Assembly: GCA_001972305.1 (NCBI GenBank)
Contig: BDDD01000378.1
Coordinates: 72,996-136,995, forward strand
DNA length: 64,000 nt
From: Cephalotus follicularis
Taxonomy: Eukaryota > Streptophyta > Magnoliopsida > Oxalidales > Cephalotaceae
Reading direction: 5' to 3'
The notes below the pieces were generated by a model. That model was given only the letters and a program-made list of their open reading frames with translations, had not been told where the DNA came from and searched no databases. The translations under genes were made by a program, and so were the position numbers. This document shows positions 847 to 64,000 of this stretch, one piece after another (position 1 is the stretch's first letter; the number at the start of each line of letters is the position of its first letter).

Positions 847-1146
847 GCGTCGACGCCTTTCATTCACATCGATGTCTCTTCTGGGTTTACATCAAAGAAG
901 TCGACGTCTTTGTATAGGGATCGACGTCTTTTCTGGAAAATGTAACTTACCTTCGAGAGCTATGAACAAGGGATCGACGTCTTTCATTAAAGGGATCGAC
1001 GTCTTTGAGCAAATTTGACCTGTAACTTTGGACCAGAAGACATCGACGTCTTTCAAATTAAGAGTCGACGTCTTTCACACGCATCTCAGTAAATCGCGAC
1101 TTTTACCTAAAGACATCGACGCCTTTCAGAAAGAAGTCGACGTCTT
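847..1146. repeat. TCGA-palindrome cluster in LTR A
   Basis: About ten copies of a degenerate palindrome centred on TCGA, such as GCGTCGACGCC (847), ACATCGATGTC (866) and AAGTCGACGTC (898), mostly followed by TTT. Spacing is irregular (about 10-50 bp), so this is not a simple tandem array. It lies upstream of the TATA box at 1233, where an LTR enhancer would be. Confidence 0.85.
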
Positions 1147-1232
1147 CCTCTGCAGCAGAAATAGAAAGATTAGATTTTTGCCATATTTTGTAACTAGGAT
1201 TGCTTTTATTCCGTTTTTGATCAACTTTGTAG

Positions 1233-1239
1233 TATATAA
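1233..1239 (+). promoter_or_regulatory. probable TATA box of LTR A
   Basis: TATATAA lies about 590 bp into the LTR and just downstream of the palindrome cluster. Position and context fit the U3/R border of a plant LTR. Function is inferred only. Confidence 0.5.
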
Positions 1240-1548
1240 GCAATGTTATTTCGACCAGATTACAGGTAAGTAGAATGTAGAGTAGTAGAAAGGCTGTAGA
1301 ACCCTAATTTCTCTTTGTCAATTTAGCTTTATTTTTACAATGTTTAGTAGCTAAACTTTATAAGGTTTTGGGGAAGAACAAAGTCTATATTGTTATTGTT
1401 TCAATTCCATCAATAAAAATCCTTGAATATTTGATTTGTTTTTCGATATTTCTGCCTTCGCACACACTTTGTCTGTCTGATTAAAATCCACAAACATCTT
1501 GTCGGTGAAGCTGAAAGTTGGCGAATAAATGGTGCTTAATTCAACGGA

Positions 1549-1702
1549 GTCTACTCATACGATTTGTCGCAACGAACACACTTCGTATAGACCTAGCATG
1601 TCTACTCATACGTCTTGCCGCCGCGTTTGCCGTACTTCGTATAGACCTAGCAGGTCTACTCATACGTCTTGTCATCACCGCCGCACTCCGTATAGACCTA
1701 GC
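1549..1702 (+). repeat. three-unit tandem repeat in LTR A
   Basis: Three head-to-tail units of about 50, 54 and 50 bp start at 1549, 1599 and 1653. Each begins GTCTACTCATACG and ends CGTATAGACCTAGC. Unit middles are diverged and C/G-rich. Overlapping short ORFs here on two frames are by-products of the repeat. Solo LTR L, of the same family, lacks it, so it arose or expanded in the A lineage. Confidence 0.8.
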
Positions 1703-2070
1703 TCTCGTTGTTTATCAAGGTATGATCGTTCAACTTCATGGAATTGTTCAATATAATCTATGGTGAGTTTCCATACCCTAAAACCGTTTCTTTATTATAT
1801 ATTCTCTTTACTTTTATTCATTGCATGCTTTATTTCTTTGTGTTTTAAATTCAACGTTTTTAATTATCAAAGTTTTAATTTCTTGTTTTATTTATTTATT
1901 TTACTTTGCATAATTAGGAGTAGTTTTTGATAGTTTATTTCAAATTTGGTATACTTCGCCTAGGTTGGATAAATTACAACTAGTTTACGTTTTCCTATGT
2001 TCGACCCGTTACTGCATGATCCGTGCACTTGCGGCTATAAATTCTAAAACATTCTTTTTAACAGTGAACA

Positions 2071-2110
2071 AGCCACATTTTAACGCACCAGGGTGCCAAA
2101 TCTAGCGGTT
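2071..2110. other. unresolved junction between LTR A and LTR fragment H
   Basis: About 40 bp that I cannot assign securely to the end of LTR A or the start of H. H would be expected to begin with TG and to be preceded by a copy of GCTAA (the bases at 4952-4956); neither is clear. This suggests a deletion joined the two elements here. Confidence 0.4.
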
Positions 2111-2424
2111 ATCATGCATACAACACATGCAAATCAATCCATTTTCACTCCAAATCATACCATGCATACAGGTTATGGAAGACCTCAATATGCATAGTTG
2201 CAATTCAACAATCATGCATTTCATCAAATGAACATCCAACATTTTTGAACTCAAAATACAAGTATATAGCCCCTACCTTTTGATCCCAAGTTAGGAACCG
2301 AAGGACCACCTCTTTAAGTCCCGGATCAGTGGCGTTTTGAGCTCCCTAGTGGCTCCGAGTCCAGGTTCGAGCTCCAAGTTCGAGCTTCCAAGTTCTTGCA
2401 CCAGTTCAAAAATGGAGAGTGTAA

Positions 2425-2448: not shown

Positions 2449-2908
2449 GTTTCTTTCTTTTTCGGGCGTCGAAGGAAGGAGATGAGAGATGTGTCTTTAT
2501 GGAGTTTCCCTCTCTCTCTTCCCTCACGCAAGCCAGGTGCCATGTGCCTTTCTCTCTGCTCTCTCTACTGTTCAACGCATAGAGAAGAGATAAAGCATCT
2601 CACATGTGCCTTATGTCAGTGCTTTGTCTTATTCTACCAACAGTTTAGGCGTCAATGCCTACGAAGCGCGCGACGCGTTGACTCTCTTCCCTTGGCTAAT
2701 AGGCTCCATGAACCGTGTTAGCGCCTACCTCTTTGTTTTCCCCTATATAGGCGTCGACGCTATCTCTTGGTGTCAACGCCTTAAGGAAAAATTGTAATGA
2801 CCGGAAATTTTGTTAAAGTTATTGTTTATGGAAATATGGTTGCTATAAGTGTTGTATTGCATGTTTTGGAGTATGTTTTGGTTTCATGCGGTGTTAAAAG
2901 CGTTGAAA

Positions 2909-3170
2909 GCGTCGACTGTCTCATTTAAAGCGTCGACGGTTAGTCTGTGTTATGTGATAAATGCCCCGAGCGTCGACTGATTCTACACACAGAACGTTTT
3001 AGCTTAAGCACAGACAGTTTGTTAAAAGCAGCGACGCTTATGCATTTAAACCAACGACAATTATTTCCTTTTTCATCGACGGTTTAAGCCTCATTTTCTT
3101 TGTTAAATGCGTTCAACCGGTGACGCTTAGTGGTTAGCAGCAGCGCTTTGAGGTTAAAGCATCGACGCTT
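2909..3170. repeat. TCGA-palindrome cluster in LTR I
   Basis: Five TCGA-centred copies of the GCGTCGACTG / GCGTCGACGG / CATCGACGCTT type, plus decayed relatives (GCAGCGACGCTT, GGTGACGCTTAG). The arms here favour GCG...CGC over the GACGTC arms of LTR A. The cluster lies upstream of TATAAATA at 3427, as in other LTRs of the window. Confidence 0.75.
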
Positions 3171-3426
3171 TATGTTCAAACTTCAACGCTTTAAGAAATA
3201 ACCTTGGATGCGCCGGCGCATCTCATTTTTTTGTCATTTTGTGAATTAATTATATTAATTATGGACAGATGTCAAGCAATGGACTGTAGAGTTAAGATAT
3301 TTTACCTGACTATTATTATTCTAAAATAAAAAAAAATGACAAGTGTCATTATTTTGGGGGAAGAGAAGCACATGGGCGGCAGCAGAACGTGGATGGCGTA
3401 AAACCTTACAGACTAAGTTACTCTCC

Positions 3427-3434
3427 TATAAATA
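3427..3434 (+). promoter_or_regulatory. probable TATA box of LTR I
   Basis: TATAAATA, followed about 30 bp later by an almost pure purine (GA) tract at 3464-3550. This order (palindromes, TATA, purine or pyrimidine leader, AAGGTAAGG) recurs in related LTRs. Function inferred. Confidence 0.6.
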
Positions 3435-4951
3435 CGGAGGTAACTTCTGCAAAAAAATTATTGAGAAGGAGAGAAAAGAAGGAAAAGAAGGAGAGAAAGA
3501 AGGAGAGAAAGAAAGAGAGGGAAGAGGAGAGAAGAGAAAAGAAGGAGAATCCTACTTAGATTTCAGTGTAGAAATTATTTCAGTGTAGGAAATGAGGGAG
3601 GGAGAATAAAGCAAGGTAAGGAAAATTCTATTTTTTTATGCCAAAGTATGCTCTGTTATTTCTGGAATTTATGCAGCAGATTGTTTTAATCATAACTTTC
3701 TCGTTTCTTGATGAAAATTCAAATGGTTGGCTGTTCTGAAAATTTTAATATATCTTCTACAATTGTTATGTTTCCTATATTTTGAATTTCTACCAATTTC
3801 TTGATGAAATTCTATGTTTAAAATTACTGCTCATGTTCTGCTGCCAAATGGAACATGCAAATTTAAAAATTTATTTTAGTTTCGTTTCTCAATAAAAAAT
3901 TATGATACAGTTGAAATGTCTATTGTTTTCATTTTCTCTGAAAATGAATATTTTTTTTTTGAATACCTTGAGCTGATTACTCAAAGTATTAAGAAATGAT
4001 TTTCTTTTACAAAATAAGAAAAGGTAATGAACTGAGATGAACAACTATTGGATTGCGATCCAATAGGGATTAATGTTATGACCAGAGAGTGCTCTCGGAC
4101 ATGCATGTGATGTGAGGATAGTAATCGGGGAGTGCACAATACCCCGGTGAAGCATGGTTCAGTTGGGTTCTTTAAGTTTATATAACCCCTCAATATTTAT
4201 GAAATGTTCTGATTCATGAGATATGATCAGAAAAGAAATGAATGTGAAATGTGTTGGTTTTATAAAATATACCACAAAATGAATTTCATTGATGTTGTGT
4301 TACGATAATTCTTACTAAGCTATTTTGATGCTCACTCCTTTCAATGTTTTTGTTTTCAACTAAAATTTTTCCAAGAAGCTGTTGAACGTGGATTTCGAGC
4401 TTCAGCAGAAGTTCGTAAAAAGGAATTTTGAGAAGAAATTACATTTTGCATAAACTGTTTTATCATGTAATGAGTTTAAATTTTCCGTTGTGTAATGTGT
4501 AATGTCAGACGTTGACGATGATCATAATAGTATATGATGTTTTCATATAAGAATATGATATCTTGATGTTTAGTGTGGAATTGTAAGACATATAAGAATT
4601 ATGAGAAGTTAATGAAAAATGGTAGCCATAAGTTAGATTGTTAAAATGGTTAAAGGTTTCACCCCCCACGTAACGCACAGATTCCTCGAGGCTCACTTTG
4701 AGCATGAGGTGAACTCGGATCTAGGGCATTACAAAAAGCCTTAAGCGAGCCTCATGTTCCTTCTCATCAACGCCATATTTTGGAGTCAACGCTCAAGCGT
4801 CTTTGCCTTATGAAATTTCCAGTTCAACACATCCTTTAACACTTTCTATCCAATCTCAACATTATAAGCAGAAACCATAATTCCCATTAATTTTTCATAA
4901 AATTACAATGAGAAATACAATAGTACATAAATGAAAATTCCGAGCGTTACA

Positions 4952-5263
4952 GCTAAACACAAGAACACAAAAACTAAAACTAAAACAACAAACATAAACA
5001 AAAAAAATTAACTCACTTTCGTAGGAATCACGATTGCATTTAGCATATGCAACAAGCCGTTAAACCCCTACGTAGCCCCAGTGGACGAGTTTTGTCTCGC
5101 GAGTGATTTCCAGTGAAAAAACACACAAAATTCAGTTCAACAAAACTTTGACAATAGGCAAAATGTATCTCTACTTAAAAATTCATAGAACACCCCCATA
5201 CGTGAATTTTATTATCTCGTTCCAAGTTCTAGAATCAAAACACATCTCAACTAAGGAGCTTTC
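4952..5263 (-). other. E: 3' non-coding segment, distal part
   Basis: Reverse complement of 300-590 in element A with moderate divergence, including the block around CGTAGGAATCACGATTGC. It joins LTR H at 4951/4952 and chromovirus B at 5263/5264. The last five bases, CTTTC, are the left TSD copy of B. Confidence 0.8.
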
Positions 5264-7979
5264 TATCACACCCCGTTTTCCAAGAAGGCAACATTAAAGC
5301 GGTAAGGCAATCAACACAACATAATTCAGCTTATGCGATATTACGTATAAACAAAAACCTTCAGTAGCAGAAGCAATAACATGAAATAAGCTGAATTTAA
5401 ATATGTATCATACATCCCATACTACATGATACCCACAAAGTTTATATAAAACCTAACATCATTGTCGATCACCCATAAACGAGCGTGATAATACAATACG
5501 AAATAAAAAAAAAACCACGTTACAATAATCCAATTAACATAGTCATTGTCCATTAATCTAGTACATTAAATAAGAGAAACAACTCAGTCTTCTCCTTAAG
5601 TCTCCTTGCATGCTCCATATCAAATGCCACTCCATCAATCTGTTACAGTAGGGGTTAGCCTGTGTCCTCACTCGGCTAAGTGAATAAACTCATAAATGCA
5701 ATTCGAGGTATATGATAATGAGTATCATGAATGAATGCATTATGATGCAGTACAGTATATATATCGTAGTGTATACATGTAGAAAGTATATGCATGTTCA
5801 CAGTACAGGTATAACCTCGTAAGGCTACATCAACACAAGCAGTAAGTATGTCCCAAAAGGAGCCAGACAAACAAGTCGTCATGACCGTCGTCACCTCCTG
5901 GCCCCAACGTCATGCAATCTTACCCCATCCCCGTTTGCGAACGGTTTGGGGCAAGTCCTCCGTACAGGTTGCTTAGCATGACGGCTAAACAATCAACAGG
6001 TTATCAGCACAACGGCTAATAATCAACAAGCACAAACACCGTACAGTACAAGTCAAGCAATAAAATATAATTACTTGATCAAATATATTTGTTTAAAATA
6101 TATTACTCCGTTCTCAGGTTGTAATAAGTTATAAAACTTAAAACAATACAGTTTGATTGTGTAACCAATCCTTTAAACATTTCTCCGTCTTTGGAAAATA
6201 CTTTCCCCGATCATTTGAAAAAATATATATATATTTGGCAAATATACATTTTCGTACAATTAATGATTATAATAATCATGGAAGCTTTTCAAAATGGTTA
6301 ACACATTTTAGCAATAAACCACAATGCAATTCATAGTACAGTAATAATGCAAACATATGCTCAGAATGCATCTAGGATCGTTTGTAGAGTCGTTTCGGGT
6401 CTAACGGGCCCCATTCGAGTGAAACTTTTCCAACCAGGGGGATAAGCGTCGATGCTTATCCCCAAGGCGTCGACGTCTTTTACCCTAAGGCGCCAACATT
6501 TCATGCAGTTATTCCCAGGCGTTTTTGGACCAAAGACATCAATGCTTTTCAAAAGACGTCGATGTCTTTACGATACCAGGAGGTATCAGTTCACGAATCT
6601 TGATTCTAGGGGGAATAATCCGGCCCTTAAACCTTCATATAAGCAAAACTCACCCTCTCAAAGTGTAAGGCATGTTACTGGTTATCAGGATATGTAACAA
6701 GAACATCAATTCATGAATAAACATGCAACCACAAGTGGGTAATTCACCATCTACAGTAATCACTACTGTTCTGCAAATACCCAGAAAAGGCGTCAATGTT
6801 TTTACTCAAACATCGGTGTCTTTCGCATTCACACATGAAGACATCGACGTCTTTGTGTAGGCGTCGATGTCTATTTAACCCAGAACGTCATTTCCATTGT
6901 TTTAACACCCCAGGCTATTACCAAACCATCCATTACACAAACCAGTTCGAATATTCATGTAAATTACACATGCATGGTTACTCCGTACATCACAGTAGTC
7001 ATCACAACAAATCGAGAGATTTCAATTCATCCATTTACATGCAATTCATCAATGGCATATCATTATCTTAAAACTCAAAATGCATGTATAAGAATCATCA
7101 CTTTCCCCTACCTTGTTGTTCCAAGTTAGGAACTAGAAAGTCCACTTCTTTGTGTTCCAAGGGTTGTTCACAGCAGCTCCAAACTCGTCCCAAGTTGCAA
7201 TCCCAGGAGGTCCAAGCTCCAAGTGCTCAACAATGGTGGTTCTATCCTCTCTCTTTCTTTCTCTATTCTATCTCTTCTCTCACAGTGTTTAGCTGAGGAA
7301 GAAGGGAAGGAAGAGGGGTTTTATGCTAACAGAAATCCTCCCTTTTTTTTCTCTTGTTTCACATGCATCCACACACATCCGTGTCCTCCTCTCTCCTTTC
7401 TGTTTTTGGCTCTCTTCCCATTTTTCTTCTGCAGGTTGCAGGTGAAGAGATGGCACATCCCTTTGCATGCACCAGGTGAGGAACACGTTTTGGAGCATGC
7501 CTGGAAACACACCAGCATGATCAACACGTCGCATTGTGCATGTCAAGATGCCTGGATGATGCCTCAAACGTTTCCCCATTGCATGTTATTCTGTCAATGT
7601 ATAACGTGACAGATGTTCTTTTCAAAGACGTCGACGTCTTTCCTTAGACGTCGATGTCTTTTCCTCTTTCATAAGAGGGTGTCGATGTCTTCACCTACAT
7701 CGACGTGCATGTACATGCATTCACGTGCTCCCTTCTTCCCATATGCGTCGACGTCTTTCCAAAGACATCGACGTGTTTATTCCATAACTGTGCCATTTTG
7801 CCTCTAATTGCATTATTTAACATTTCTTTAACATCCCAAACATTCCCTCTTCCAAAATCTAACCTTTTAAATTTCAAAAAGCATCATCTAAGTCAGAAAT
7901 TATGCCATTCTCATTAATTCAATAATAAGATTACACTTTAATATGGAATGTTACAATAACAAAAATTTCGGGGGTTACA
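5264..7979 (-). repeat. 3' LTR of B
   Basis: Plus-strand limits are TATCACACCCCG (the expected TG has become TA) and GGGGTTACA. It aligns end to end with 12697-15432. It has TCGA-palindrome clusters in three blocks, a pyrimidine-rich stretch at about 7240-7430 and the CCCCTACCTT block at 7107-7116 (minus-strand donor-like AAGGTAGGGG). No clear TATA box found. An open frame on + at 7223-7609 exists in both LTRs, but its composition does not suggest a gene. Confidence 0.95.
6447..7775. repeat. TCGA-palindrome clusters in B 3' LTR
   Basis: Three blocks: 6447-6572 (GCGTCGATGC, GCGTCGACGTC, ACGTCGATGTC and a decayed ACATCAATGC), 6789-6873, and 7624-7775 (six copies, including the 18-bp perfect palindrome AAAGACGTCGACGTCTTT). 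About eleven TCGA-centred copies in all. The third block lies within 360 bp of the LTR start (minus sense), in the expected enhancer region; the other two lie downstream. Confidence 0.85.
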
Positions 7980-7991
7980 TCCACCCCTCCT
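7980..7991 (-). promoter_or_regulatory. polypurine tract of B
   Basis: On minus AGGAGGGGTGGA immediately precedes the 3' LTR start TGTAACCCC. It has the standard place and composition for plus-strand priming. Element F has GGGGGGGTGGA in the same place. Confidence 0.85.
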
Positions 7992-12696: not shown

Positions 12697-15432
12697 TGTC
12701 CCACCCCGTTTTCCAAGAAGGAAACATTAAAGCGGTAAGGCAATCAACACAACATAATTCAGCTTATGCGATATTACGTATAAACAAAAACCTTCAGTAG
12801 CGGAAGCAATAACATGAAATAAGCTGAATTTAAATATGTATCACGCATCCCATACTACATAATACCCACAAAGTTTATATAAAACCCAACATCATTGTCG
12901 ATCGCCCATAAACGGAGCGTGATAATACAGTACGAAATAAAATAAACCACGTTACAATAATCCAATTAACATAGTCATTGTCCATTAATCCAGTATATAA
13001 AATAAGAGAAACAACTCAGTCTTCTCCTTAAGTCTCCTTCCGTGCTCCATATCAAATCCCACTCCATCAATCTGTTACAGTAGGGGTTAGCCTTTGTTCT
13101 CACTCGGCTAAGTGAATAAACTCATAAATGCAGTTCGAGGTATATGATAATGAGTATCATGAATGAATGCATTATGATGCAGTACAGTATGTATATATCG
13201 TAGTATATATATCGCAGTGTATACATGTATAAAGTATATGCATGTTCACAGTAAAGGTATAACCTCATAAGGCTACATCAACACAAGCAGTAAGTATGTC
13301 CCAAAAGGAACCAGACAAACAAGTCGTCATGACCGTCGCCACCTCCTGGCCCCAACGTCATGCACTCTTACCCCATCCCCATTTGCGAACGGTATGCGGC
13401 AACTCCTCCGTACAGGTTGCTTAGCACAACGGTTAAACAATCAACAGGTTATTAGCACAGCGGCCAATAATCATCAAGCACAAACACCGTACAGTACAAG
13501 TCAAGCAATAAAATATAATTACTTGATCAAATATATTTGTTTAAAATATATTACTCCATTCTCAGGTTGTAATAAGTTAAAAAACTTAAAACAATACAGT
13601 TTGATTGTGTAACCAATCCTTTAAACATTTTTTCGTCATTGGAAAATACTTTCCTCGATCATTTGAATATATATATAGATTTGGCAAATATACATTTTCG
13701 TACAATTAATGATTATAATAATCATGCAAGCTTTTCAAAATGGTTAACACTTTTTAGTAATCAACCACAATGCAATTCATAGTACAGTAATAATGCAAAC
13801 ATACACTCAGAATAGATCTAGGATCATTTCTAGAGTCGTTTCGGGTCTAACGGGCCCCATTCGAGTGAAACTTTTCCAAACAGGGGGATAAGCGCCGATG
13901 CTTATCCCCAAGGCGTCGGCGTCTTTTACCCTAAGGCGCCAACATTTTGTGCAGTTATTCCCATGCATTTTTGGACCAAAGACATCGATGCTTTTCCAAA
14001 GACGTCGATGTCTTTATCGTACCCGGAGGTATCAGTTCGTGAATCTTGATTCTAGGGGGATGAATCCGGCCCTTAAACCTTCATATAAGCAAAACTCACC
14101 CTCTCAAAGTGTAAGGCATGCTACTGGTTATCAGGATATGTAACCAGAACATCAATTCATGAATAAACATGCAACGACAAGTGGGCAATTCACCATCTAC
14201 AGTAATCACTACTGTTCTGCAAATACCCAGAAAAGGTGTCAATGTGTTTACTCAAACATCGGTGTCTTTCGCATTCACACACGAAGGCATCGACGTCTTT
14301 GTGTAGGCGTCGACGTCTATTTAACCCATAACGTCATTTCCATTGTTTTAACACACCAGGCTATTACCAAAACATCCATTACACAAAATAGTTCGAATAT
14401 TCATGTAAATTACACATGCATGGTTACTCCGTACATCACAGGAGTCATCACAACAAATCCAGAGATTTCAATTCATCCATTTACATGCAATTCATCAATG
14501 GCATATCATTATCTTAAAACTCAAAATGCATGTATAAGAATCATCACTTTCCCCTACCTTGTTGTTCCAAGTTAGGAACTAGAAAGTCCACTTCTTTGTG
14601 TTCCAAGGGTTGCTCACAGCAGCTCCAAACTCATCCCAAGTTGCAATCCCAGGAGCTCCAAGGTCCAAGCTCCAAGTGCTCAACAATGGTGGTTCTATCC
14701 TCTCTCTTTCTTTCTCTGTTCTATCTCTTCTCTCACAGTGTTTAGCTGAGGAGGAGGGGAAGGAAGAGGCATTTTATGCCGGTCAAAATCCTCCCTTTTT
14801 TTTCTCTTGTTTCACATGCATCCACACACACCCGTGTCCTCCTCTCTCCTTTCTGTTTTTGTCTCTCTTCCCATTTTTCTTCTGCAGGTTGCAGGTGAGG
14901 AGATGGCACATCCCTTTGCATGCACCAGGTGAGGAACACGTTTTGGAGCATGCCTGGCAACACACCAGCATGATCAACACGTCGCATTGTGCATGTCAAG
15001 ATGCCTGGATGATGCCTCAAAAGTTGCCCCATTGCATGTTATTCTGTCAGTGTATAACGTGACAGATGTTCTTTTCAAAGACGTCGACGTCTTTCCTTAG
15101 ACGTCGATGACTTTTCCTCTTTCATAAGAGTGTGTCGATGTCTTCACCTACATCGACGTGCATGTACATGCATTCACGTGCGCCCTTGTTCCCATAGGCG
15201 TCGACGTCTTTCCAAAGACATCGACGCGTTTATTCCAGAACTGCGCCATTTTGCCTCTAATTGCGTTATTTAACATTTCTTTAACATCCCAAACATTCGC
15301 TCTTCCAAAATCTAACCTTTTAAATTTTGGAAAGCATCATCTAAGTCAGAAATTTTGCCATTCTCATTAATTCAATAATAATATTACACTTCAATTTGGA
15401 ATGTTACAATAACAAAAATTCTGGGCGTTACA
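12697..15432 (-). repeat. 5' LTR of B
   Basis: Plus-strand limits TGTCCCACCCCG and GGCGTTACA; TSD CTTTC follows at 15433. It is the presumed promoter LTR of B, 2736 bp. Block order equals the 3' LTR. The splice-donor-like AAGGTAGGGG (minus) lies near 14555-14564. Same family as solo LTR K. Confidence 0.95.
13891..15232. repeat. TCGA-palindrome clusters in B 5' LTR
   Basis: Same three blocks as in the 3' LTR: 13891-14012, about 14236-14320, and 15077-15232. Individual copies differ between the two LTRs mostly at CpG sites (for example CGTCGACGTC against CGTCGGCGTC, ACATCGATGC against ACATCAATGC). Confidence 0.85.
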
Positions 15433-16298
15433 CTTTCACTACATTTTTCTGTTATTTCACACATTTTACCAATCAAGATATGCATTCTTAGTAACATAAA
15501 ATCCTAGTTTGGATTCGGCCAAAGAACTTTAGCACTTACACACATCTTTTTCTTTTCATTTTCTTTTATTAATCTTGTTCCTCCACTACTTTTGGTTTGA
15601 ATGACATGGATGGAGCAAACACCAAACATCCAAATTACTAAGTAGCTTTAGATTTTACCAACTTAAATTGATTCAATGTCTTGATCTATTAAGCTTTCTA
15701 TAAGACCCATGGAGCGAGCTTTCAACCAGTTACTCTCAAACCAGTTTGTTTTAAGAAACTAAGTGTAAAACACCCCCAAGGCTTAATCACTCTAATCAAA
15801 TAGGCTACAGACCAATACTGAATTCAAAGAGGTAAAATATGCTTTATTCTTCTTCTTTTTTCTTTCTCTCTTTTTTATAGATACATACATACATATATAT
15901 ATGCAAGAAGATCCATTCATTGTCCTTCTCCTCACTAATGATCAATGAAACTTTAAAAACATTCAAGAATGTTCTTTATTCATTCTTTTCTTTTATTTTT
16001 CGCATACACTCATTCCTTGAGATATATACCTTTTCTTTTCCTAGAAAACAAGATTTTTATTATTTCTCCTATGGTGTTTTTCTATTATCATCAAGCATAT
16101 CTACATTTACTCTTATTTTCAAAATTAAGATGAACTTTGTTACTAAACCCCCATATACTTAAACTTTGCATTGTCCTCTATGCAATGAAACACAACTATA
16201 AAAATAACCATAAATGAGCAAAAATAGATGAAACAATGCAAATAAATAAAAGAACAATGGGGTAGGGTTTACCGGATATGATCATGGAGGTTCGAAAT
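15433..16298 (-). other. E: 3' non-coding segment, proximal part
   Basis: Continues E on the far side of B. The first 90 bp match, in inverse, the sequence just after the pol stop in element A (AATCAAGATATGCATTC, CATAAAATCCTA). The rest is A/T-rich with no gene; short frames are not supported. The last five bases GAAAT are the left TSD of solo LTR J. Confidence 0.7.
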
Positions 16299-17548: not shown

Positions 17549-17882
17549 GGCGTTGATGTCCTTGGCAAAAGACATCGATGCGTATCAGGGCATGCCTTTG
17601 AAAATTATAGAAGGACGTCGATGTCTTTGAAAGACATCGATGTCTTTCTCAGTTAGTCGAAGACGTCGATGTCCTTGGACAAAGACGTCGATGCGTTTCG
17701 ATAAAAATGGCCTGGGAATGCGCATTGATGCCCCGCGTTGATGCCTTTTCTGGGAAAAGACATCTCAAGGCAAAGACGATTATGTCTTTCAAAGACATCA
17801 ATTTCTTTTCTGCGAAATCAAGGAGGTTGCATCCCAAAGCGAAAGACATCGATGTCCATGGGCGAGGGGATCGATGTCTTTG
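17549..17882. repeat. TCGA-palindrome cluster in LTR J
   Basis: About seven TCGA-centred copies, including back-to-back GACGTCGATGTC and GACATCGATGTC around 17613-17645, plus several where the core has decayed to TTGA or TCAA (GCGTTGATG, ACATCAATTT). Confidence 0.8.
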
Positions 17883-18408: not shown

Positions 18409-18416
18409 CTTATATA
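18409..18416 (-). promoter_or_regulatory. probable TATA box of LTR J
   Basis: TATATAAG on minus, within the context CGGCTATATAAGCC. Placed upstream (minus sense) of a pyrimidine-rich leader at about 18310-18380. Confidence 0.5.
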
Positions 18417-18583
18417 GCCGATTCTGCCAACTCTCCAAAACTCAGCCCAAAAATCCTGACTATACATGCATTTAATCAATACATGATAATAGGTATAGGA
18501 ATACCTCAATTCAATACAATTTGATACGGTTCAATACGATGCAGTATGCATGAACAGTAAAAAAGGGAATTCGGGTCGTCACA

Positions 18584-24131: not shown

Positions 24132-24142
24132 TATGCCCCCCT
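24132..24142 (-). promoter_or_regulatory. polypurine tract of C
   Basis: On minus AGGGGGGCATA directly precedes the 3' LTR start TGATGGGGG. Correct place for plus-strand priming. Confidence 0.8.
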
Positions 24143-48176: not shown

Positions 48177-49685
48177 TGATAAGCATAACTATGTATTCTT
48201 TTAATGAGTTAATTATTGTATTTTTATGCTTGGAAGATATTACTTTCGTGGTCTTTGATTGACTTTCAGGTAAGAAGCCAAAGTGATAAAAAATTCAGAA
48301 ACATGAGTCAAATGGCGTAAATAGAGAGCAAGAAGATCAAAGTATGAAGAATAGCAAAAATTCTTCATCAAACAAAGCAGGACGTCAACGCCTAGACTTA
48401 AGCATGGACGCCTAACTCTTACGCACTGACGGGTTCAAGTTAAGCGTCGAGGCTTTCTAATCCATGTGATCATACCTGCAGAATTATGATTTTCATCAAC
48501 ACCAAAGGTTTACGTGTCAACGTGCTGAGAATTCAGCATTTACACATCAATGCCATCATTTAGATGTCAACGCCATAAATGCACAATTCGGACAGCAGCT
48601 TAGACATTGACGAACAAAGAGGAAGATGTCAGCGCCATCCTGCTTCACAACTTAAGTGTCGACGCCTTACTTTAACATTGATTCTTAACGTTGAAAGTAT
48701 GCCCCATAACGTAGAATCACATCGACGCCTAGCACCTTCAACATATGAAAGTGTCAACGCAGAACACTAAATTGTCGACGCCCAAGACTTAAGCGTCGAC
48801 ACTTACGACGTATCAGGGGCCAAATTTGGAAAGTTTTTATAGTTTTAGTCAGATTCTAATAGTTAGATTTTTTTCATTTTTCTGCATTAGGTTAGAGTAT
48901 AAAAAGGAAACAATGAGTCTGGTTTTGTGAGGCTGGTAACTTAACACAACAAAGAAAGCGGTTGTTGGATGAAGAATTCTTTGAAGATTATTGCAGCTAC
49001 CATCGTCATGACCGGCTAAGTTTCTTAATCCCTGGATGTAGATGAACCCATGTTTTATATATATTTCAATTCTGGTTTTCTGGTTTAATAGCATGTTTGT
49101 CAGACAATCTTTTCTTGTTAATGTATGTAGAACATTGATGAGAAGGAATTTTAATGATATAAAATATGTTTTGATGTTTTAGTGCTTGTAGCTCTATTTC
49201 ATTCACATCATGCATTGATTCTTAATTTCTCTAGGTGATTGAATCAAAGACATCCTTTAACCAATCATCCTTTCGAGAGTCAAGATTTGACAGGATAGAC
49301 TGTACCTAGGCTAAATCATTATTTTCGGTGATATTTGTGATATCACACTTAAACCAGAATTTATGCCATGAATTTGATATATATATATATATACATGCGG
49401 GGATTCTCACATCTATGGGATTGCTTTCTTATCTTACTTTCATATTTATTTATTCACATTACTTTAGATATTTAATTTGAATTGTTTAATTTCTCATTGC
49501 TGTTGTTTAATCCAAATCAATCCTCTTTTGCAGTTATTTTATTTAGTGTTTATTATTTCTGTTTAATTGCATACTAGTTTCATTTTTATAGTAAATAATC
49601 ATAGCTCTTCGTGGGAACGATCCCTACTTTCCATTTGCTGATTGTTAGATTAGGGTAATTTTGAATTGGTTCAACGACACAAACA
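48177..49685 (+). mobile_element. solo LTR L (Athila-like, family of A)
   Basis: TGATAAGCATAA...CACAAACA, 1509 bp, with exact CCTCT duplications at 48172-48176 and 49686-49690, and E RT reading across. Similar to LTR A over its start, the TTTTTATGCTTGGAA block and the end. TATAAAAA at 48898-48905 is the likely TATA box. A (TA)n tract lies at 49377-49393. TCGA-type motifs cluster at 48371-48806, upstream of the TATA box, many decayed to GTCAACG. Confidence 0.9.
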
Positions 49686-52664: not shown

Positions 52665-53941
52665 TGAAATAAAACACTCTTGCAATATACAAGAGGGGGG
52701 GTGAATTGAATATTGAAGTAAAATCGGGAATTTAAAAACTTTAAATGTAAAGAGTTAAGGAAAGAAAAACTTCTCCGAAATTTAGAGTGGTTCGGTTAAC
52801 TCTTGCCTACGTCCACTTTTCCCAAGGGAGCTCCTTGAGTTTCCACTATAGCTCGAATTGATTAAGGCAACAATTCGTTACACCTCACAAATTCGTGATT
52901 GACCTCAATCACAAGACCTTGACCTCAAAGCCTTAGAGGATTCTCCTCTTTTACAAGAAATGATAAAAGTGTTTACAAGATGACCTCTCAAATAGGTAGG
53001 TATGAAAAATACAGCTCTCAATATGAAACACTCAGATATTCTCAAAGAATAAAGCTTAGAAGCTTGTTAGAGCAATATAGAGCACTTTGAGCTTTTTACA
53101 CAAGTATGCTTGGATTTCATTTCTCTTTTGATGTTGTGTAATTGATGTTGAATAATTCTGAATTGTTGTTTTTCTTCTAAGGTTTCAATCTTCCTTTTAT
53201 AGCCACAAAAGATTTGTAGCCGTTGCATAATTCATGGAAGCTTTTGATTTAATAATGTGTAGTTGCAATCTTTGAATTTGTCTTCTGCTGACATAAAGAC
53301 ATCGACTTCCTTTTAAAGGCGTCGATGTCTTTGTAGCTGATAGCCATTGGTAGTGCATGTACTAGCCGTTCCAGGTTTCCAGGGTCTTGTTCATTTAAAA
53401 AGACGTCGATGTCTTTTTAAAGGCGTCGATGTCATTTTTGGGAAATCTCCAGCATTTGACTCTTTGAACATCACATCGACTTCTTCTGTGGGGGTCGATG
53501 TATTTTCTGGGAAATGCAGGTAGCTCTAGAAAGGCGTCGATGTCTATCAAAAGGCATCGATGCCTTTTGTACTGACGTCGATGTCTTTGTATATAGGATC
53601 GATGTCTTCAATTTGCCATTTCGTACAGTAGCTTCTGGCACTAAAGACGTCGATGTCATTTTTAAAGTAGTCGATGTCTTTTGGTACGAACGTCGATGTC
53701 ATAACTGGAAGGACGATGTCTTCATTGTATTTTGATCTTGCACTAAAGACGTCGATGTCTTTGTGGAAGGGATCGATGTCATCTTGTACGGACGTCGATG
53801 TCATTATTTGAGAGTCGATGTCTTCTTCTGCATATGGTATTTTGCTTTGGTATTGAACTTGTAATTTCTTGCACATTAAGTAAACTTGTCAAATGCAAAT
53901 ATGTTATCATCAAAACAAGGATTGAGACTTAATCGTCAACA
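52665..53941 (-). repeat. 3' LTR of G
   Basis: 1277 bp, TGAAATAAAACAC...ATCGTCAACA on plus, next to the polypurine tract. TATAAAA on minus (53195-53201) is the probable TATA box. Compared with the 5' LTR I see scattered substitutions in the first 250 bp (for example GGGGGGG/GCGAGGG, ATCGGG/ATTGGG, CTCCTT/ATCTTT). Confidence 0.95.
53302..53825. repeat. TCGA-palindrome cluster in G 3' LTR
   Basis: About seventeen TCGA-centred copies in 520 bp, mostly GACGTCGATGTC, GCGTCGATGTC and GGATCGATGTC followed by TTT. This is the densest cluster in the window. On minus it lies between the LTR start and the TATA box, the expected enhancer region. Short ORFs on both strands are translations of the repeat. 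Confidence 0.9.
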
Positions 53942-53955
53942 ATCTCCCCCTTTTT
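53942..53955 (-). promoter_or_regulatory. polypurine tract of G
   Basis: On minus AAAAAGGGGGAGAT directly precedes the 3' LTR start TGTTGACGATT. Confidence 0.9.
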
Positions 53956-54607
53956 GATGATGAAAAAAATTTGCTCAAAAGGCATAAATTAAAGTAATAC
54001 CAATTTAAAAATATAAGTGAATACCAATAGAGACAAATTATAATGTAAGCAATTTGTAATGTTCATGCAATATCAAATAAGCAATGAGTTATGAGTCTTA
54101 GTCTTAATTTCTCATATTGAGCCTTTTCTCCCAAAGTTCATAAACTCAAGCATTAGCATTTCTCCCCAAACATAATTCTCCACAAACATAACATATTTCT
54201 TTTGAGCCATTAGCATTTCTCCCCCTTTTTTGTATAGCATCAAAAAGATCTACAAAAGGCAGAAAAAATTAGCTCCCCCTTAATAAAAGCAAGGGTGAAA
54301 AAAATATGAACATAAGCATTAGAATCAAAATATCGGCAATAATTGAGAAAACACAATTATACAACACAATTATATCATAGATCAAATATATATATTCATA
54401 CAACACAATTCATAAAAACTGTATAAACATCATCGCATAAACACAATTTCATAAACACATAAACATTTCATTAATATCATGAATTCAAACTTGTTCTTAC
54501 AAAAAATTATAAATAACCACTTAGTTTTCATTACATCACAACTAAAAACAAAAAATTAGCAACAAGAAACAAAACAATACCAAATAGAAAACAGCAGCAA
54601 CAAGCAA
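53956..54607 (-). other. non-coding spacer between extra ORF and polypurine tract of G
   Basis: A/T-rich, with several purine-rich minus-strand runs (AAAAAAGGGGGAGAAATG near 54212-54229, AAGGGGGAGC near 54272-54281). These could be secondary polypurine tracts, a feature described in Sireviruses. No gene seen. Confidence 0.6.
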
Positions 54608-55921
54608 TCAAGAGGCAACAGGAGGGGCATCGGATTCAGATTCATCTCCCGAAGTCTCTTCGCAACGATCAATAGTTTTGGAGTCGGCAAGCTTTCGTTC
54701 CATTCTTTTTAGACACCTCTTAACGACTTTCAGATCGTAGAAGATGGTGTCATCAACATTTTCGTAGTCGGAATGAAGTATCTTATGATCGTTCTCCAAT
54801 CTAGTGAGCCGCGTGTTGACTTGCTTAAATTTATCATCAAGCGAGGCTTGCATGGAAGCAAATGGAGAACGCATGAACTCCATCAGCCTGTCATAATCAG
54901 TAGTGGATGAGCTTCCTTGAGCTTGAGGCTGAGCAGGTGTAGCTTCCCCTTGAGCTTCCCAAGGAGGGTTCTCTTCTTGCTCTTCAATAGCAATCCTTGG
55001 CCCTTGATCCACTTTGGGGTAATAGGTCCAAATCCCTTCCTGTTTCTTCCACCCCATCCGATTCAAAGTACTCTTGTTGTATGTGTCTTCTTTCTTTAAT
55101 TTGGTTGCTATCTCTCCTTCTAGCCGAATATGACAATGTTGGAAGACTTTGGTAAGAATGGAGCCAAAAGGTAGAACTGATTTCTTTTGTGAGAATGCTC
55201 TAACCATAGTCTTGAGCATGAGGAGAGGAAAACAAAACTCAATTTTGGAAAGGATGCACCACATAAGAAAAACTTGCATCCTAGACAATTTTGCATACCC
55301 TCCACCAGTGGGTAGAATTTGATGAACAATAAGATGGTGGAGTAACCTATGATCTACAGACAATCTATTGGTTGTCAATGCCATATTGGGATGGACATTT
55401 GGATCATTAGGGTAGAGAATAGACAAAATTTGGTTAGGGTGAAAACCCTCAACCTCCGACCATTTCTTGTGTTCAAAGACATATAAACCGGTGTGTGGAA
55501 TATGTAAAATAGAAGCTAGAATCCTAGCATCTAGGTAAATTCTCTGCCCTTTAACAGAGGAGGAGAGTGAAAATTCCTCATTTGGGCTAGAAACAATCCT
55601 AAGGTTAGAATAAAATTCCTTGACCAATTTAATATAAAAGGGGTCAGAAATTTGAACAAGTGGGAGAAGATGTAGATCATCTAACCAGGAAACGAAAGAA
55701 AACTCGGAGGAACAGAAATCCAAGTCAATATTTCTGCCTCCCATCACACTTTTTTCAACAAAAACTACATTCCTAAGAGAAACTTGCTCTTTGGATGCGG
55801 AATCCTAAAGAGAAGGGTCGGGGGAAGACTCTCTAAGTTCGATCCTCTGCTTTTTAGCAGATTTCTTAGGTTGAGAGGTCGAAGCAGCCTTCTTTTTGAC
55901 AGTTTGTTTAGTCCAAGGCAT
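54608..55921 (-). pseudogene. extra sense ORF of G, after pol (env-like position)
   Basis: Open 379 codons at 55747-54608. The same frame extends upstream to an ATG at 55921 (MPWTKQTVKKKAAS) through one TAG at about 55805-55807, so the intact protein would be near 437 residues. The N-terminus is strongly basic. The middle (LVKEFYSNLRI, LDARILASILHIPHTG) resembles the 'putative plant transposon protein' type of domain. A Q/S-rich linker and a charged C-terminal helix (MERKLADSK) with acidic end follow. Sireviruses often carry an env-like ORF here; I see no clear signal peptide or transmembrane helix, so I do not call it an envelope. Function unknown. Confidence 0.7.
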
Positions 55922-56508
55922 TTTCACAAACAGTTGGTGAGCACAAGGAGAAGACACTGAGAATGACAAAAATAGATGGATTGGAGTAAACGAAAAGAGT
56001 TTTTGATGTTGAAAACGGGTTTAGAAGATGTTTTTCGAAATATTAGAATGATTTTTGAAAGAAAAAGTAGAGAGAAAAAAAATTTGAAATTGCTCATAGT
56101 AGGGTAGAAGTGATAAATGAACATAAGATCGACGTTTTTATGAAGAAGTCGATTTCTGAGTAAAATACGTCGACGTGATTCAAAAGAAGTCGACGCGTTC
56201 TTTAAATGAACGGAAGAAATCGATACAGAAAACGCTGCGTTTTGAAAAGCATCGACGTGTTTGAAAAGGAGTCGACGTGTTTCAAAGAGATCGATGTTTT
56301 GAAAAGAGATCGACGTGATTTTCATAAGACATACAGTTTTCCAGAAAAGAAGTCGACGTTATTTTGTAAAGCATAAAATTTCCAGAAAAGAAGTCGACTC
56401 TTTTATAAAACAGTGCAGAAAAATCAAGCAAAAACAAATCAATAACCGAAAACAATCATCACATCAATTATGCATTCAATCAAACATATCATTCAAACAT
56501 AATAAACA
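55922..56508 (-). other. spacer between pol and the extra ORF of G, with palindrome cluster
   Basis: No gene. Between 56127 and 56396 lie about eleven TCGA-centred motifs (TACGTCGACGTG, AAGTCGACGCG, GCATCGACGTG, AGATCGATGTT). The arms favour CACG/CGTG ends, a different flavour from the G LTR. It is the only clear cluster outside an LTR in the window. Confidence 0.8.
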
Positions 56509-59550: not shown

Positions 59551-61203
59551 TTATGTTGAAGCCTTTGGTACCCAAGTTGCTTTGGGTCCGGGGGGGTTAG
59601 TAACAAATGTTCCTTTAGGAACCCATATAGTTCTTAGTTTCAACAATTTATTTTTTAATAGCAAATTTCTTTTGTTCATGTCATTTTTCTTCCGATAGCA
59701 TGTGTGTGTAGTGTGGCCATGTCTATTGCAATAATTACAAGTCATGCTTGATGAGATCTTTTGCTTATCCTTCTTTTCAAGGTATTTTTGAAAATGTTTA
59801 ACATTATTCATCTCATCATAACCTAGGCCAGCTTTGTTGAAAACACATCTTTGAAGACCTAGTAGTTTATCTAGTTTTTCACTACTATCAGAAAATTTTG
59901 AAAAAGTCTTTTTAAGAGCATCAATTTGAACTTTTAAAGTCTCATTTTCTTTTTCTAAAGAAATAATCTTATCATCTAGTGACTTATTAGATAAGCATTC
60001 TAATTCATGGTTTAAGCTAACATTTTCTCTATTAATAGATTTAATGGTCTTTTTAAGAGAAGAGTTTTCTAAGCTAAATTTCTCAAGAAGTTCAAGTGGT
60101 TCACTTACCTCATTCTCATCTTCATCTTGATCACTATCGTTGATAGCCATCAATGCTATTTGTGCTACTTCTTGGTCTTCTTCTTCTTCGGAACTTGATT
60201 CATCACTATCCGACCAAGTGGCAAGCATAGCTTTCTTCTTTTTGATAGTGTCCTTTGCTTTCTTCAATCTTGGGCATTCACTCTTGTAATGTCCGGGTTT
60301 ATTACATTCGAAGCACACTATCTCTTCCTTCTTTGTTTCGGATTTTGATGGGAATGTCTTCTTGAAATGTTTGTTCCCAAACTTTTTCGTAGCTAGATAC
60401 TTCTTGAATCTTCTTGTGATTAAAGCCATTTCATCGTCACTTTCTTCATCACTTGAGTCCGGTGTAGAGGACTTAAATGCAATGACTTTCTTTTTCTTTT
60501 TATCTAGTTCTTCATCATCCTCATGATTTTTGATGGTCATTTCGTGTATCATGAGTGATCCAAGAAGTTCTTCAAGCGGCAAAGTGTTGAGGTATTTAGC
60601 TTCCTCTATGGCCGTAACTTTAGGTATCCAACTTTTCGGTAGACACCTAAGTATCTTTCTCACCATTTCACTATTAGTGCAGCATTTATTCAATGATTGT
60701 AAGGAATTAATAATATTAGTAAATCTAACAAACATACCGGAAATGTTTTCGTTTTCCTTCATGGAGAACATTTCGTATTCTCTTACAAGCATGTTTATTT
60801 TTGCGTCCTTGACTTGATTTGTACCTTCATAGGTAACTTCTAATCTATCCCACATCTCTTTAGCCGTAGCACATGATGATACTCTATTGAATTCATTAGA
60901 ATTTAAAGCACATATAATCACATGTTTGGCTTTAGCGTTTAGTTGTTCCTTTTTTCGATCATCATCCGTGTAAGAGCTTCTCGGTTTGAGGGTTTTGATA
61001 CCTTCTTGCGAGATGATGTGAGGAAGTTCCGGGCCATCAATAATGATGTCCCATAGGTTGAAGTCAATAGCTTCAATGAATATAGTCATCTTTGCCTTCC
61101 AATGACTATAGTTGTTTCCATCGAAAAATGGAGGCTTTGAGATGGACATGCTTTCCTTGTTTGACATATTCAATTCCATAAGGATCTTTGTAATCTCTAA
61201 CAA
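59551..61203 (-). CDS. gag: G: gag, intact
   Basis: 550 codons without a stop. The functional start may be the Met 12 codons in (MSNKESMSISKPPFFDGNNY). Order: gag core (YSHWKAKMTIFIEAIDFNLW, CATAKEMWDRLEVTYEGT, GMFVRFTNIINSLQ), a Lys-rich and acidic linker, a first knuckle CFECNKPGHYKSEC near residue 300, a long coiled coil about 375-470 (SLEKENETLKVQIDALKKTF), and a second knuckle CNYCNRHGHTTHTC near 497. Long gag with a coiled coil is typical of Sireviruses. A truncated repeat of its first third occurs at 62603-62977. Confidence 0.95.
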   Translation of the reverse strand: MLEITKILMELNMSNKESMSISKPPFFDGNNYSHWKAKMTIFIEAIDFNLWDIIIDGPELPHIISQEGIKTLKPRSSYTDDDRKKEQLNAKAKHVIICALNSNEFNRVSSCATAKEMWDRLEVTYEGTNQVKDAKINMLVREYEMFSMKENENISGMFVRFTNIINSLQSLNKCCTNSEMVRKILRCLPKSWIPKVTAIEEAKYLNTLPLEELLGSLMIHEMTIKNHEDDEELDKKKKKVIAFKSSTPDSSDEESDDEMALITRRFKKYLATKKFGNKHFKKTFPSKSETKKEEIVCFECNKPGHYKSECPRLKKAKDTIKKKKAMLATWSDSDESSSEEEEDQEVAQIALMAINDSDQDEDENEVSEPLELLEKFSLENSSLKKTIKSINRENVSLNHELECLSNKSLDDKIISLEKENETLKVQIDALKKTFSKFSDSSEKLDKLLGLQRCVFNKAGLGYDEMNNVKHFQKYLEKKDKQKISSSMTCNYCNRHGHTTHTCYRKKNDMNKRNLLLKNKLLKLRTIWVPKGTFVTNPPGPKATWVPKAST

Positions 61204-61214
61204 TTAAGAAATAA

Positions 61215-61236
61215 GATTGACCTCTCTGATAGCAAT
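61215..61236 (-). promoter_or_regulatory. primer-binding site of G (degenerate)
   Basis: On minus TTGCTATCAGAGAGGTC next to the 5' LTR. It resembles TGGTATCAGAG (initiator tRNA-Met type) with mismatches. The identical sequence recurs at 62989-63010. Confidence 0.7.
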
Positions 61237-62514
61237 TGAAATAAAACACTCTTGCAATATACAAGAGGCGAGGGTGAATTGAATATTGAAGTAAAATTGG
61301 GAATTTAAAAACTTTAAATGTAAAGAGTTAAGGAAAGAAAAACTTCTCCGAAATTTAGAGTGGTTCGGCTAACTCTTGCCTACGTCCACTTTTCCCAAGG
61401 GAGATCTTTGAGTTTCCACTATATCTCGAATTGATTAAGGCAGCAATTCGTTACACCTCACAAATTCGTGATTGACCTCAATCACAAGACCTTAACCTCA
61501 AAGCCTTAGAGGATTCTCCTCTTTTACAAGAAATGATAAAAGTGTTTACAAGTTGACCTCTCAAATAGGTAGGTATGAAAAATACAGCTCTCAATATGAA
61601 ACACTCAGATATTCTCAAAGAATAGAGCTTAGAAGCTTGTTAGAGCAATATAGAGCACTTTGAGCTTTTTACACAAGTATGCTTGGATTTGATTTCTCTT
61701 TTGATGTTGTGTAATTGATGTTGAATAATTCTGAATTATTGTTTTTCTTCTGAGGTTTCAATCTTCCTTTTATAGCCACAAAAGATTTGTAGCCGTTGCA
61801 TAATTCATGGAAGCTTTTGATTTAATATTGTGTAGTTGCAATCTTTGAATTTGTCGTCTGCTGACATAAAGACGTCGACTTCTTTTTAAAGGCGTCGATG
61901 CCTTTGTAGCTGATAGCCGTTGGTAGTGCATGTACTAGCCGTTCCAGGTTTCCCGGGTCTTGTTCATTTAAAAAGACGTCGATGTCTTTTTAACGGCGAC
62001 GATGTCATTTCTGGGAAATCTCCAGCATTTGACTCTTTGAACATCACATCGACTTCTTCTATGGGGGTCGATGTATTTTCTGGGAAATGCAGGTAGGTCT
62101 AGAAAGGCGTCGATGTCTATCGAAAGGCGTCGATGTCTTTTGTACGAACGTCGATGTCTTTGTATATAGGATCGATGTCTTCAATTTGCAATTTCGTACA
62201 GTAGCTTCTGGCACTAAAGACGTCGATGTCATTTTTAAAGTAGTCGATGTCTTTTGGTACGGACGTCGATGTCATAACTGGAAGGACGATGTCTTCATTG
62301 TATTTTGATCTTGCACTAAAGATGTCGATGTCTTTGTGGAAGGGATCGATGTCTTCTTGTACGGACGTCGATGCCATTATTTGAGAGTCGATGTCTTCTT
62401 CTGCATATGGTATTTTGCTTTGGTATTGAACTTGTAATTTCTTGCACATTAAGTAAACTTGTCAAATGCAAATATGTTATCATCAAAACAAGGATTGAGA
62501 CTTAATCTGTCACA
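61237..62514 (-). repeat. 5' LTR of G
   Basis: Plus start TGAAATAAAACAC. The far end reads CTTAATCTGTCACA where the other LTR has CTTAATCGTCAACA, so the last 7 bp are altered or replaced. TATAAAA on minus at 61768-61774. Palindrome cluster at 61870-62396. 1278 bp. Confidence 0.9.
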
Positions 62515-62614
62515 CCCGTTCCCTACAACAACCAATATCCTTACCGAGAACGGATATGACGTTCCATATGACAACTTCCTTTCGGAAATCACCATATGGA
62601 TTTTATAACTTATC
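62515..62614. other. filler between the two tandem copies
   Basis: About 100 bp without a match elsewhere in the window. It contains CCATATG at about 62563 and CATATGG at about 62592 as inverted words. CTGTCACACCCG at its left resembles ends of chromovirus LTRs (TGTCCCACCCCG in B), so it may be a remnant of another LTR. Origin unknown. Confidence 0.4.
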
Positions 62615-62977
62615 TAATCTATCCCACATCTCTTTAGCCGTAGCACATGATGATACTCTATTGAATTCATTAGAATTTAAAGCACATATAATCACATGTT
62701 TGGCTTTAGCGTTTAGTTGTTCCTTTTTTCGATCATCATCCGTGTAAGAGCTTCTCGGTTTGAGGGTTTTGATACCTTCTTGCGAGATGATGTGAGGAAG
62801 TTCCGGGCCATCAATAATGATGTCCCATAGGTTGAAGTCAATAGCTTCAATGAATATAGTCATCTTTGCCTTCCAATGACTATAGTTGTTTCCATCGAAA
62901 AATGGAGGCTTTGAGATGGACATGCTTTCCTTGTTTGACATATTCAATTCCATAAGGATCTTTGTAATCTCTAACAA
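62603..62977 (-). pseudogene. gag: truncated second copy of gag of G
   Basis: The first 121 codons equal residues 1-121 of gag at 61203, ending ..KEMWDRL, then two unrelated codons and a stop. Offset is exactly 1774 bp. No function is expected, as the core domain is cut. Confidence 0.9.
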
Positions 62978-63010
62978 TTAAGAAATAAGATTGACCTCTC
63001 TGATAGCAAT

Positions 63011-64000
63011 TGAAATAAAACACTCTTGCAATATACAAGAGGCGAGGGTGAATTGAATATTGAAGTAAAATTGGGAATTTAAAAACTTTAAATGTAAAGA
63101 GTTAAGGAAAGAAAAACTTCTCCGAAATTTAGAGTGGTTCGGCTAACTCTTGCCTACGTCCACTTTTCCCAAGGGAGATCTTTGAGTTTCCACTATATCT
63201 CGAATTGATTAAGGCAGCAATTCGTTACACCTCACAAATTCGTGATTGACCTCAATCACAAGACCTTAACCTCAAAGCCTTAGAGGATTCTCCTCTTTTA
63301 CAAGAAATGATAAAAGTGTTTACAAGTTGACCTCTCAAATAGGTAGGTATGAAAAATACAGCTCTCAATATGAAACACTCAGATATTCTCAAAGAATAGA
63401 GCTTAGAAGCTTGTTAGAGCAATATAGAGCACTTTGAGCTTTTTACACAAGTATGCTTGGATTTGATTTCTCTTTTGATGTTGTGTAATTGATGTTGAAT
63501 AATTCTGAATTATTGTTTTTCTTCTGAGGTTTCAATCTTCCTTTTATAGCCACAAAAGATTTGTAGCCGTTGCATAATTCATGGAAGCTTTTGATTTAAT
63601 ATTGTGTAGTTGCAATCTTTGAATTTGTCGTCTGCTGACATAAAGACGTCGACTTCTTTTTAAAGGCGTCGATGCCTTTGTAGCTGATAGCCGTTGGTAG
63701 TGCATGTACTAGCCGTTCCAGGTTTCCCGGGTCTTGTTCATTTAAAAAGACGTCGATGTCTTTTTAACGGCGACGATGTCATTTCTGGGAAATCTCCAGC
63801 ATTTGACTCTTTGAACATCACATCGACTTCTTCTATGGGGGTCGATGTATTTTCTGGGAAATGCAGGTAGGTCTAGAAAGGCGTCGATGTCTATCGAAAG
63901 GCGTCGATGTCTTTTGTACGAACGTCGATGTCTTTGTATATAGGATCGATGTCTTCAATTTGCAATTTCGTACAGTAGCTTCTGGCACTAAAGACGTCGA
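63011..64000 (-). repeat. duplicated 5' LTR of G, running off the window
   Basis: Plus start TGAAATAAAACAC as at 61237. Includes the TATA box (63542-63548, minus) and the first part of the palindrome cluster from 63644. The remaining about 290 bp lie outside. Confidence 0.95.

Follow-up and report, generated by a model that had tools for sequence, protein, structure and literature searches.

In this study, we analysed a 64-kb window of the Cephalotus follicularis genome (contig BDDD01000378.1 of assembly GCA_001972305.1, positions 72,996 to 136,995; the window is the whole 64,000-nt stretch, and all coordinates below are its own) and found that palindromes centred on RTCGAY form arrays in the long terminal repeats (LTRs) of its retrotransposons. 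Self-comparison and Pfam scans showed that the window consists of nested plant LTR retrotransposons. Judged by sequence, the array-bearing families appear to represent three clades: a Sirevirus-type copia element (G), Tekay-like gypsy elements (B, K, D and F, to which the solo LTRs I and J probably also belong), and Athila-like gypsy elements (A and L). A further cluster, M, lies in the internal linker of G. The sites keep helical phase with one another, and the clades share the site and no surrounding cassette; both observations are new relative to the initial annotation of this DNA. On balance, we favour the reading that the clades acquired the arrays convergently as targets of a dimeric nuclear protein, which is most likely an activator supplied by the host.

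RTCGAY palindromes are concentrated in LTRs

For each motif-bearing stretch, the RTCGAY count was compared with the mean of 300 dinucleotide shuffles. The counts were 10 in A (1.2 by shuffling), 5 in I (1.2), 10 in J (2.0), 14 in K (1.8), 8 in D (1.4), 10 in F (1.7), and 12 and 11 in the 3′ and 5′ LTRs of B (1.6 and 1.8). The three G LTRs held 17, 16 and 9 (1.3, 1.4 and 1.0), the last being truncated by the window end, and cluster M held 11 (1.0). Only L, with 4 sites against 1.0, fell inside the shuffle range (maximum 5 in 300 shuffles); it contains 3 further decayed sites. As controls, the two LTRs of the gypsy element E held 0 and 1 RTCGAY (0.56 and 0.57 expected), and 15 non-LTR stretches totalling 37,261 bp held 19 (18.8 expected), which is background. 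Neighbouring sites spaced by 17–23 bp occurred 68 times in 13 motif-bearing stretches and never in the E LTRs or in the 15 non-LTR stretches. The placement of the motif in LTRs by the initial annotation is thus borne out, the in-window density lying far above both shuffled and non-LTR DNA. A matrix scan gave 129 positions of at least 10 bits against 3.2 in simulated sequence, a partly circular figure given that the matrix was trained on the same sites; the earlier hand count of about 130 was right in size.

The clusters listed in the initial annotation are present at or near the positions that it gave, with the refinement that B and D each hold two or three sub-clusters and no continuous run. 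The annotation's palindromes are indeed TCGA-centred; TCGA alone is insufficient to describe them, the shared core being RTCGAY. Nine perfect palindromes of at least 16 bp were found in the window, five of which are TCGA-centred, with two of these being the same site in both B LTRs. The longest, at 53548-53569, is 22 bp, and the best copies are perfect at 18 to 22 bp. The palindrome arms vary by family: AAAGACGTCGACGTCTTT and near forms occur in B, K, J, G and A, AAAGCRTCGAYGCTTT-like forms in D and I, and CAGTCGACTG in F, while the form in L is shorter. An ACGT core, on which a bZIP reading had been proposed, was present in 30 of 82 sites and in none of the 26 sites of L, I, F and D, and that reading does not hold. 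The sense-strand ratio of ATCGAC to GTCGAT was 31:10, mostly due to G (12:2), and carries no weight here as a sign of orientation. Scanning viral contigs with the 18-bp motif returned seven stretches with one site each.

The annotation had also described the carriers as unrelated lineages. Copia and gypsy clades do share the motif, but they amount to three clades rather than nine lineages, because B and K are one family (82% identity), one and the same LTR accounts for all three G clusters, and F and D are related.

Sites are spaced by whole helical turns

The distances between site centres cluster near 20–21, 31–32, 41–43, 50–51, 61–62, 71–72, 81–84 and 102–103 bp, and the power at 10.5 bp was 0.52, compared with at most 0.25 across 2000 simulations. 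In a refined test, which used one LTR per family and dropped the second copy of the G duplication, the best period was 10.3 bp and the mean cosine over 160 pairs was 0.57. The null mean was -0.06 when all gaps were jittered and 0.20 when short gaps were kept and only long gaps jittered; with all families pooled, none of 4000 trials attained the observed phasing under either null. Taken clade by clade with short gaps kept, phasing was significant in the Athila-like LTRs (p = 0.016) and the G LTR (p = 0.004) and was attained in 0 of 4000 trials for M. Restricted to 23 nearest-neighbour gaps of 25–62 bp, a simpler test gave p = 0.014. The retention of helical phase across spacers points to proteins bound on one face of the DNA.

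The motif diverges slowly between B and K

Between the 5′ LTR of B and K, 27 of 215 non-CpG columns of the 18-bp motif differed (12.6%), compared with 386 of 1861 columns far off (20.7%; p = 0.004). Of the 41 B–K indels, none fell in the 288 motif columns and one in the 318 columns that separate neighbouring sites. When the two LTRs of a single B copy, which have diverged since insertion, were compared, the motif was not slower (9 of 223 columns against 75 of 1925 elsewhere). Such a contrast between the B–K comparison and the comparison within one copy would be expected of a motif that matters during element replication. Across the LTR pairs of B and G, 1 of 30 core CpGs had decayed, compared with 17 of 68 outside (p = 0.010); with E and D added, the figures were 2 of 31 and 30 of 129 (p = 0.044). 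The low decay of core CpGs, in these small numbers, hints at protection by a putative bound protein. With its helical phasing and slow divergence between the two branches of one family, the motif behaves as a protein-read site, and to that extent agrees with the reading first suggested for it.

A proposed common reader and its alternatives

Probably, the arrays are read on DNA as the binding sites of a nuclear protein that acts as a dimer, be it a single protein or a small family. Each RTCGAY-centred palindrome, about 10–20 bp long, would take one dimer, and whole-turn spacing would put the bound dimers on one DNA face, from which they could act jointly on the LTR promoter. The three clades would each have built their arrays by point change and local duplication, as the same protein boosts their expression, so that the site was acquired convergently and no single cassette was handed between them. 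The common phased palindrome thus suggests that the three groups answer to the same DNA-binding protein; for the reader, a transcription factor of the host is the likeliest candidate, with the arrays most likely serving as enhancers. Repeated boxes in the LTRs of Tnt1 and Tto1 are stress enhancers, a likeness drawn from their description.

Several results weigh against this reading. All tests come from one window. The phasing of the Tekay-like LTRs with short gaps kept gave p = 0.081. When the B–K motif was compared with nearby spacer (62 of 346 columns differing, 17.9%), p was 0.10 with the 5′ LTR of B and 0.04 with the 3′ LTR, and when the CpGs of the whole motif including the arms were counted, decay (8 of 60 against 17 of 68) did not differ significantly (p = 0.12). 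In J, the array is found downstream of the TATA box, and in B, K and D some sub-arrays lie over 1 kb inside the LTR. The arms differ by family, so that a single reader for all arrays is not required, and RNA folding is stronger for the arrays of G and F than for shuffled sequences.

The last of these observations leads to the alternative that we consider the least improbable, although still clearly unlikely: that the palindromes act in RNA, where hairpins in LTR transcripts would feed small-RNA silencing, as has been argued for maize Sireviruses, and the sharing would reflect a common silencing target or a by-product. The folding z-scores were -5.5 for G (0 of 100 shuffles as good), -6.8 for F (0 of 200) and -2.0 for A (4 of 100), and in maize an excess of small RNAs maps to the palindrome clusters of Sireviruses (PMC10760457). 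However, folding needs no whole-turn spacing over unpaired spacers, and 12 of 17 G sites are ATCGAC in the sense strand, which places an A–C mismatch in a sense hairpin. RNA hairpins are possible for some arrays, but they leave the DNA phasing unexplained.

In place of a host factor, the reader could be an element-encoded protein acting as an activator or anti-silencing factor that other clades exploit, for example the PF20167 accessory protein of G. In this scheme, to which we assign a low probability, the protein would be a common switch for the retrotransposons of this genome that binds helically phased RTCGAY arrays in its own LTR and before its own gene, the Tekay-like and Athila-like elements having convergently evolved its address. 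Cluster M (56121-56404, minus strand) lies between the reverse-transcriptase open reading frame (ORF) and the accessory ORF, upstream of the latter, like the copies of the palindromic motif RM ahead of ENV in Sireviruses. The accessory region (54608-55920, minus strand) encodes a basic N-terminal stretch, then a stop, and then a 398-amino-acid open frame with the Pfam domain PF20167 (54608-55804). This ORF is kept in many Cephalotus proteins: a search gave 387 relatives, and 120 of 120 among the matches listed were from Cephalotus follicularis, at 74–94% identity, with the basic N-terminal patch present in 23 of 40 aligned relatives. A sunflower Athila accessory ORF carries a PF20167 domain together with a nuclear signal (PMC11728184), so that the family spans copia and gypsy elements. 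That an element can encode a protein that binds arrayed motifs is known from VANC (PMC5735166), but the VANC motifs are same-orientation non-palindromes and family-specific. The structure model of the accessory protein contains a long C-terminal helix at moderate confidence but is poor overall (mean pLDDT 39.9) and reveals no DNA-binding fold, and in the window copy the stop separates the basic N-terminus from the remainder.

We give still less credence to the possibility that the arrays have no specific reader and are by-products of tandem duplication or slippage of a 20–21 bp unit, or of nucleosome positioning. G does contain a 102-bp tandem duplication and several 19–21 bp repeats, and a 10.3-bp period also fits nucleosome-wrapped DNA. 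Against this, gaps of 29–32 bp and about 51 bp do not correspond to whole numbers of units, long gaps remain in phase in the test that holds short gaps and drops the second G duplicate, and slippage would not yield the same core in three clades.

Least probable among the alternatives is the exchange of one cassette between families through recombination, followed by divergence, which the initial annotation had entertained. Unmasked LTRs do match across clades, up to 52 bp at 85% (G–A), with 71 matches between Sirevirus and Tekay-like, 26 between Sirevirus and Athila-like, and 35 between Tekay-like and Athila-like LTRs. After 20 bp around each site had been masked, 0, 0 and 1 matches were left; 131 of 132 were lost, and the survivor was 18 bp long. 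Site-shuffled arrays with scrambled spacers matched the observed best cross-family scores in 9 of 10 comparisons, and in the tenth (M–J) the observed score was attained by 13 of 200 shuffles. Taken together, the loss of cross-clade similarity upon masking and the shuffle result indicate that the clades share the site and not a stretch of common descent, with the reservation that the spacers left after masking dense arrays are short, which limits the power of the comparison; small old exchanges between clades are possible. The same comparisons led us to reject an inserted satellite, a miniature inverted-repeat transposable element or a travelling cassette as the source of the clusters within the window. 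Nesting of elements into palindromes was dropped as a cause, as the available text of PMC6911290 gives a weak preference.

Comparison with known systems

Sirevirus LTRs bear high-copy palindromes in their upper half, ahead of the TATA box, and additional copies precede the ENV-like ORF (PMC2829016). The arrays of G resemble these in both respects, with LTR palindromes before the TATA box and copies upstream of the ORF that follows the reverse transcriptase. RM was called Sirevirus-specific and absent from classic copia elements, with a CGG-CCG core except in Tnd-1; RTCGAY is the core in 2 of 13 published RM motifs, those of Vitis and Tnd-1 (PMC2829016). The sites described here differ in having the RTCGAY core, in occurring also in gypsy LTRs of two clades, and in being helically phased, phasing not being mentioned in the available sections of that report (PMC2829016). 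Confinement to Sireviruses was not found in the window, given the arrays in the gypsy LTRs of A, B, D, F and K. In maize, Ty3 elements are reported to be generally without a comparable peak, and Helitrons, too, commonly contain the copia palindrome (PMC10760457), so that sharing across classes, as far as that source goes, is not wholly without precedent.

The target motifs of VANC in VANDAL DNA transposons are likewise dense noncoding arrays of a short motif that grow by tandem duplication and have a specific protein reader; they differ in being non-palindromic, in the same orientation, largely family-specific (one unrelated element is noted) and read by an element-encoded protein (PMC5735166; PMC10398659). 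A VANC-type array was rejected for the window, as the motif is palindromic. In heat-responsive COPIA elements, the same host-factor site was gained independently in the LTRs of several families, as proposed here; these are few nGAAn motifs, in copia only, with HSFA2 as the known factor and no RTCGAY palindrome in the available account (PMC5059998). The CLSY3/REM system offers a host DNA-binding family that marks loci for silencing (Pol IV recruitment) via a motif. That motif was rejected as a match, being tandem TTTTGCTTAT, another sequence without CG (PMC12270911; PMC8752594). Among open-licence papers, we found no report of the same palindrome in both copia and gypsy LTRs, and a search with the exact motif strings gave, among the matches listed, none about retrotransposons by title.

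Earlier work had assigned high-copy LTR palindromes of this type to a single copia genus. Should unrelated copia and gypsy clades within one genome prove to converge on one phased site, the control of retrotransposons would be partly shared and written in a code readable from sequence. This would lead directly to the factor by which retrotransposons are woken or silenced, and would offer a reason for a possible joint expansion of unrelated families.

Array-bearing elements of the window

G (minus strand; LTRs 52665-53941 at the 3′ and 61237-62512 at the 5′ end) has the hallmarks of a copia element of Sirevirus type. Its Pfam domains (PF14223, zf-CCHC, gag_pre-integrs, rve and RVT_2) follow the copia order with a gag zinc knuckle. 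Several Sirevirus-type polypurine octamers, AGGGGGAG, lie in its linker on the minus strand (53944, 54219 and 54273, within 53942-54280), the terminal one followed by the AT/TG attachment site. In agreement with the Sirevirus plan, 17 LTR sites precede the TATA box and 11 M sites precede the accessory ORF; the core is RTCGAY and not the CGG-CCG of the Sirevirus RM. The arrays, all on the minus strand, occupy 53294-53825 (3′ LTR), 61867-62398 (5′ LTR) and 63641-64000, the last in part of a further copy that adjoins G and is cut off at the window edge. The stretches 60834-62226 and 62606-64000 are 99.86% identical and repeat the LTR and the internal start in tandem across a 93-base gap (62513-62605), an arrangement as after recombination between G copies. 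In a protein search with the copia integrase, the best-scoring match was 57% over 99%, with no close species among the matches listed.

Among the Tekay-like gypsy elements, B (minus strand; 3′ LTR 5262-7980, 5′ LTR 12697-15433; self-comparison and Pfam) has three sub-arrays at 6441-7778 and matching ones at 13887-15231. The solo LTR K of the same family (plus strand, about 19756-22467) has its sub-arrays at 19921-21253. D (minus strand) has an LTR at 44302-46833 with two sub-arrays at 45685-46712, and its second LTR is broken and split by element E. F (plus strand, 3′ end at 40335) carries a CAGTCGACTG-type array near that end (38725-38918), in which 9 RTCGAY stand mostly at 20–22 bp spacing. 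The grouping of B, K, D and F follows from the chromodomain of F (PF00385, 1.3e-6), the only one detected, and from the resemblance of B and D to F in reverse transcriptase and integrase. With the gag portion of D as query, a protein search found 15 relatives, 14 of them from Asteraceae at 39–50% and none named Cephalotus.

The solo LTR I (plus strand, about 2793-4733, chromovirus-type ends) has its array at 2904-3172, and the solo LTR J (minus strand, 16299-18583, target duplication GAAAT) at 17545-17881. Both are placed as probably Tekay-like by their LTR ends alone. A (plus strand, about 650-2118; array 842-1147) is tentatively called Athila-like because the 56 bp adjoining it match the integrase end of another element at 80%; the solo LTR L (plus strand, 48177-49685, target duplication CCTCT; partly decayed array 48377-48806) is so called, again tentatively, because it has 108 bp in common with A at 75% similarity. 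Tekay-like, Athila-like and Sirevirus are used as working clade labels, given by domains, sequence similarity and other sequence features.

The first sites lie about 117–209 bp into the LTR in G, I, D, K, A and B, and the TATA box lies downstream of the last site by 97 bp in A, 105 bp in G (box GGCTATAAAAGG) and 103 bp in L.

Other features of the window

The array of I is followed, at 3208-3223, by a perfect 16-bp palindrome centred on CCGG, which represents another core in the same LTR. I interrupts an LTR-like stretch, H (minus strand, starting at 4951; 2119-2792 and 4734-4951), which was absent from the initial annotation and holds two motif sites, one near 2653 (decayed) and one near 2755. 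The stretches 34548-36972 and 40336-42770 show inverted similarity of 81.5%; they belong to the internal regions of F and D, a related gypsy pair lying head to head. Element E (gypsy, minus strand, 23178-33781), which is nested within the D LTR and has no array, contains at 24771-27210 (plus strand) two long open frames opposite to its gag-pol strand, the first with PF04195.

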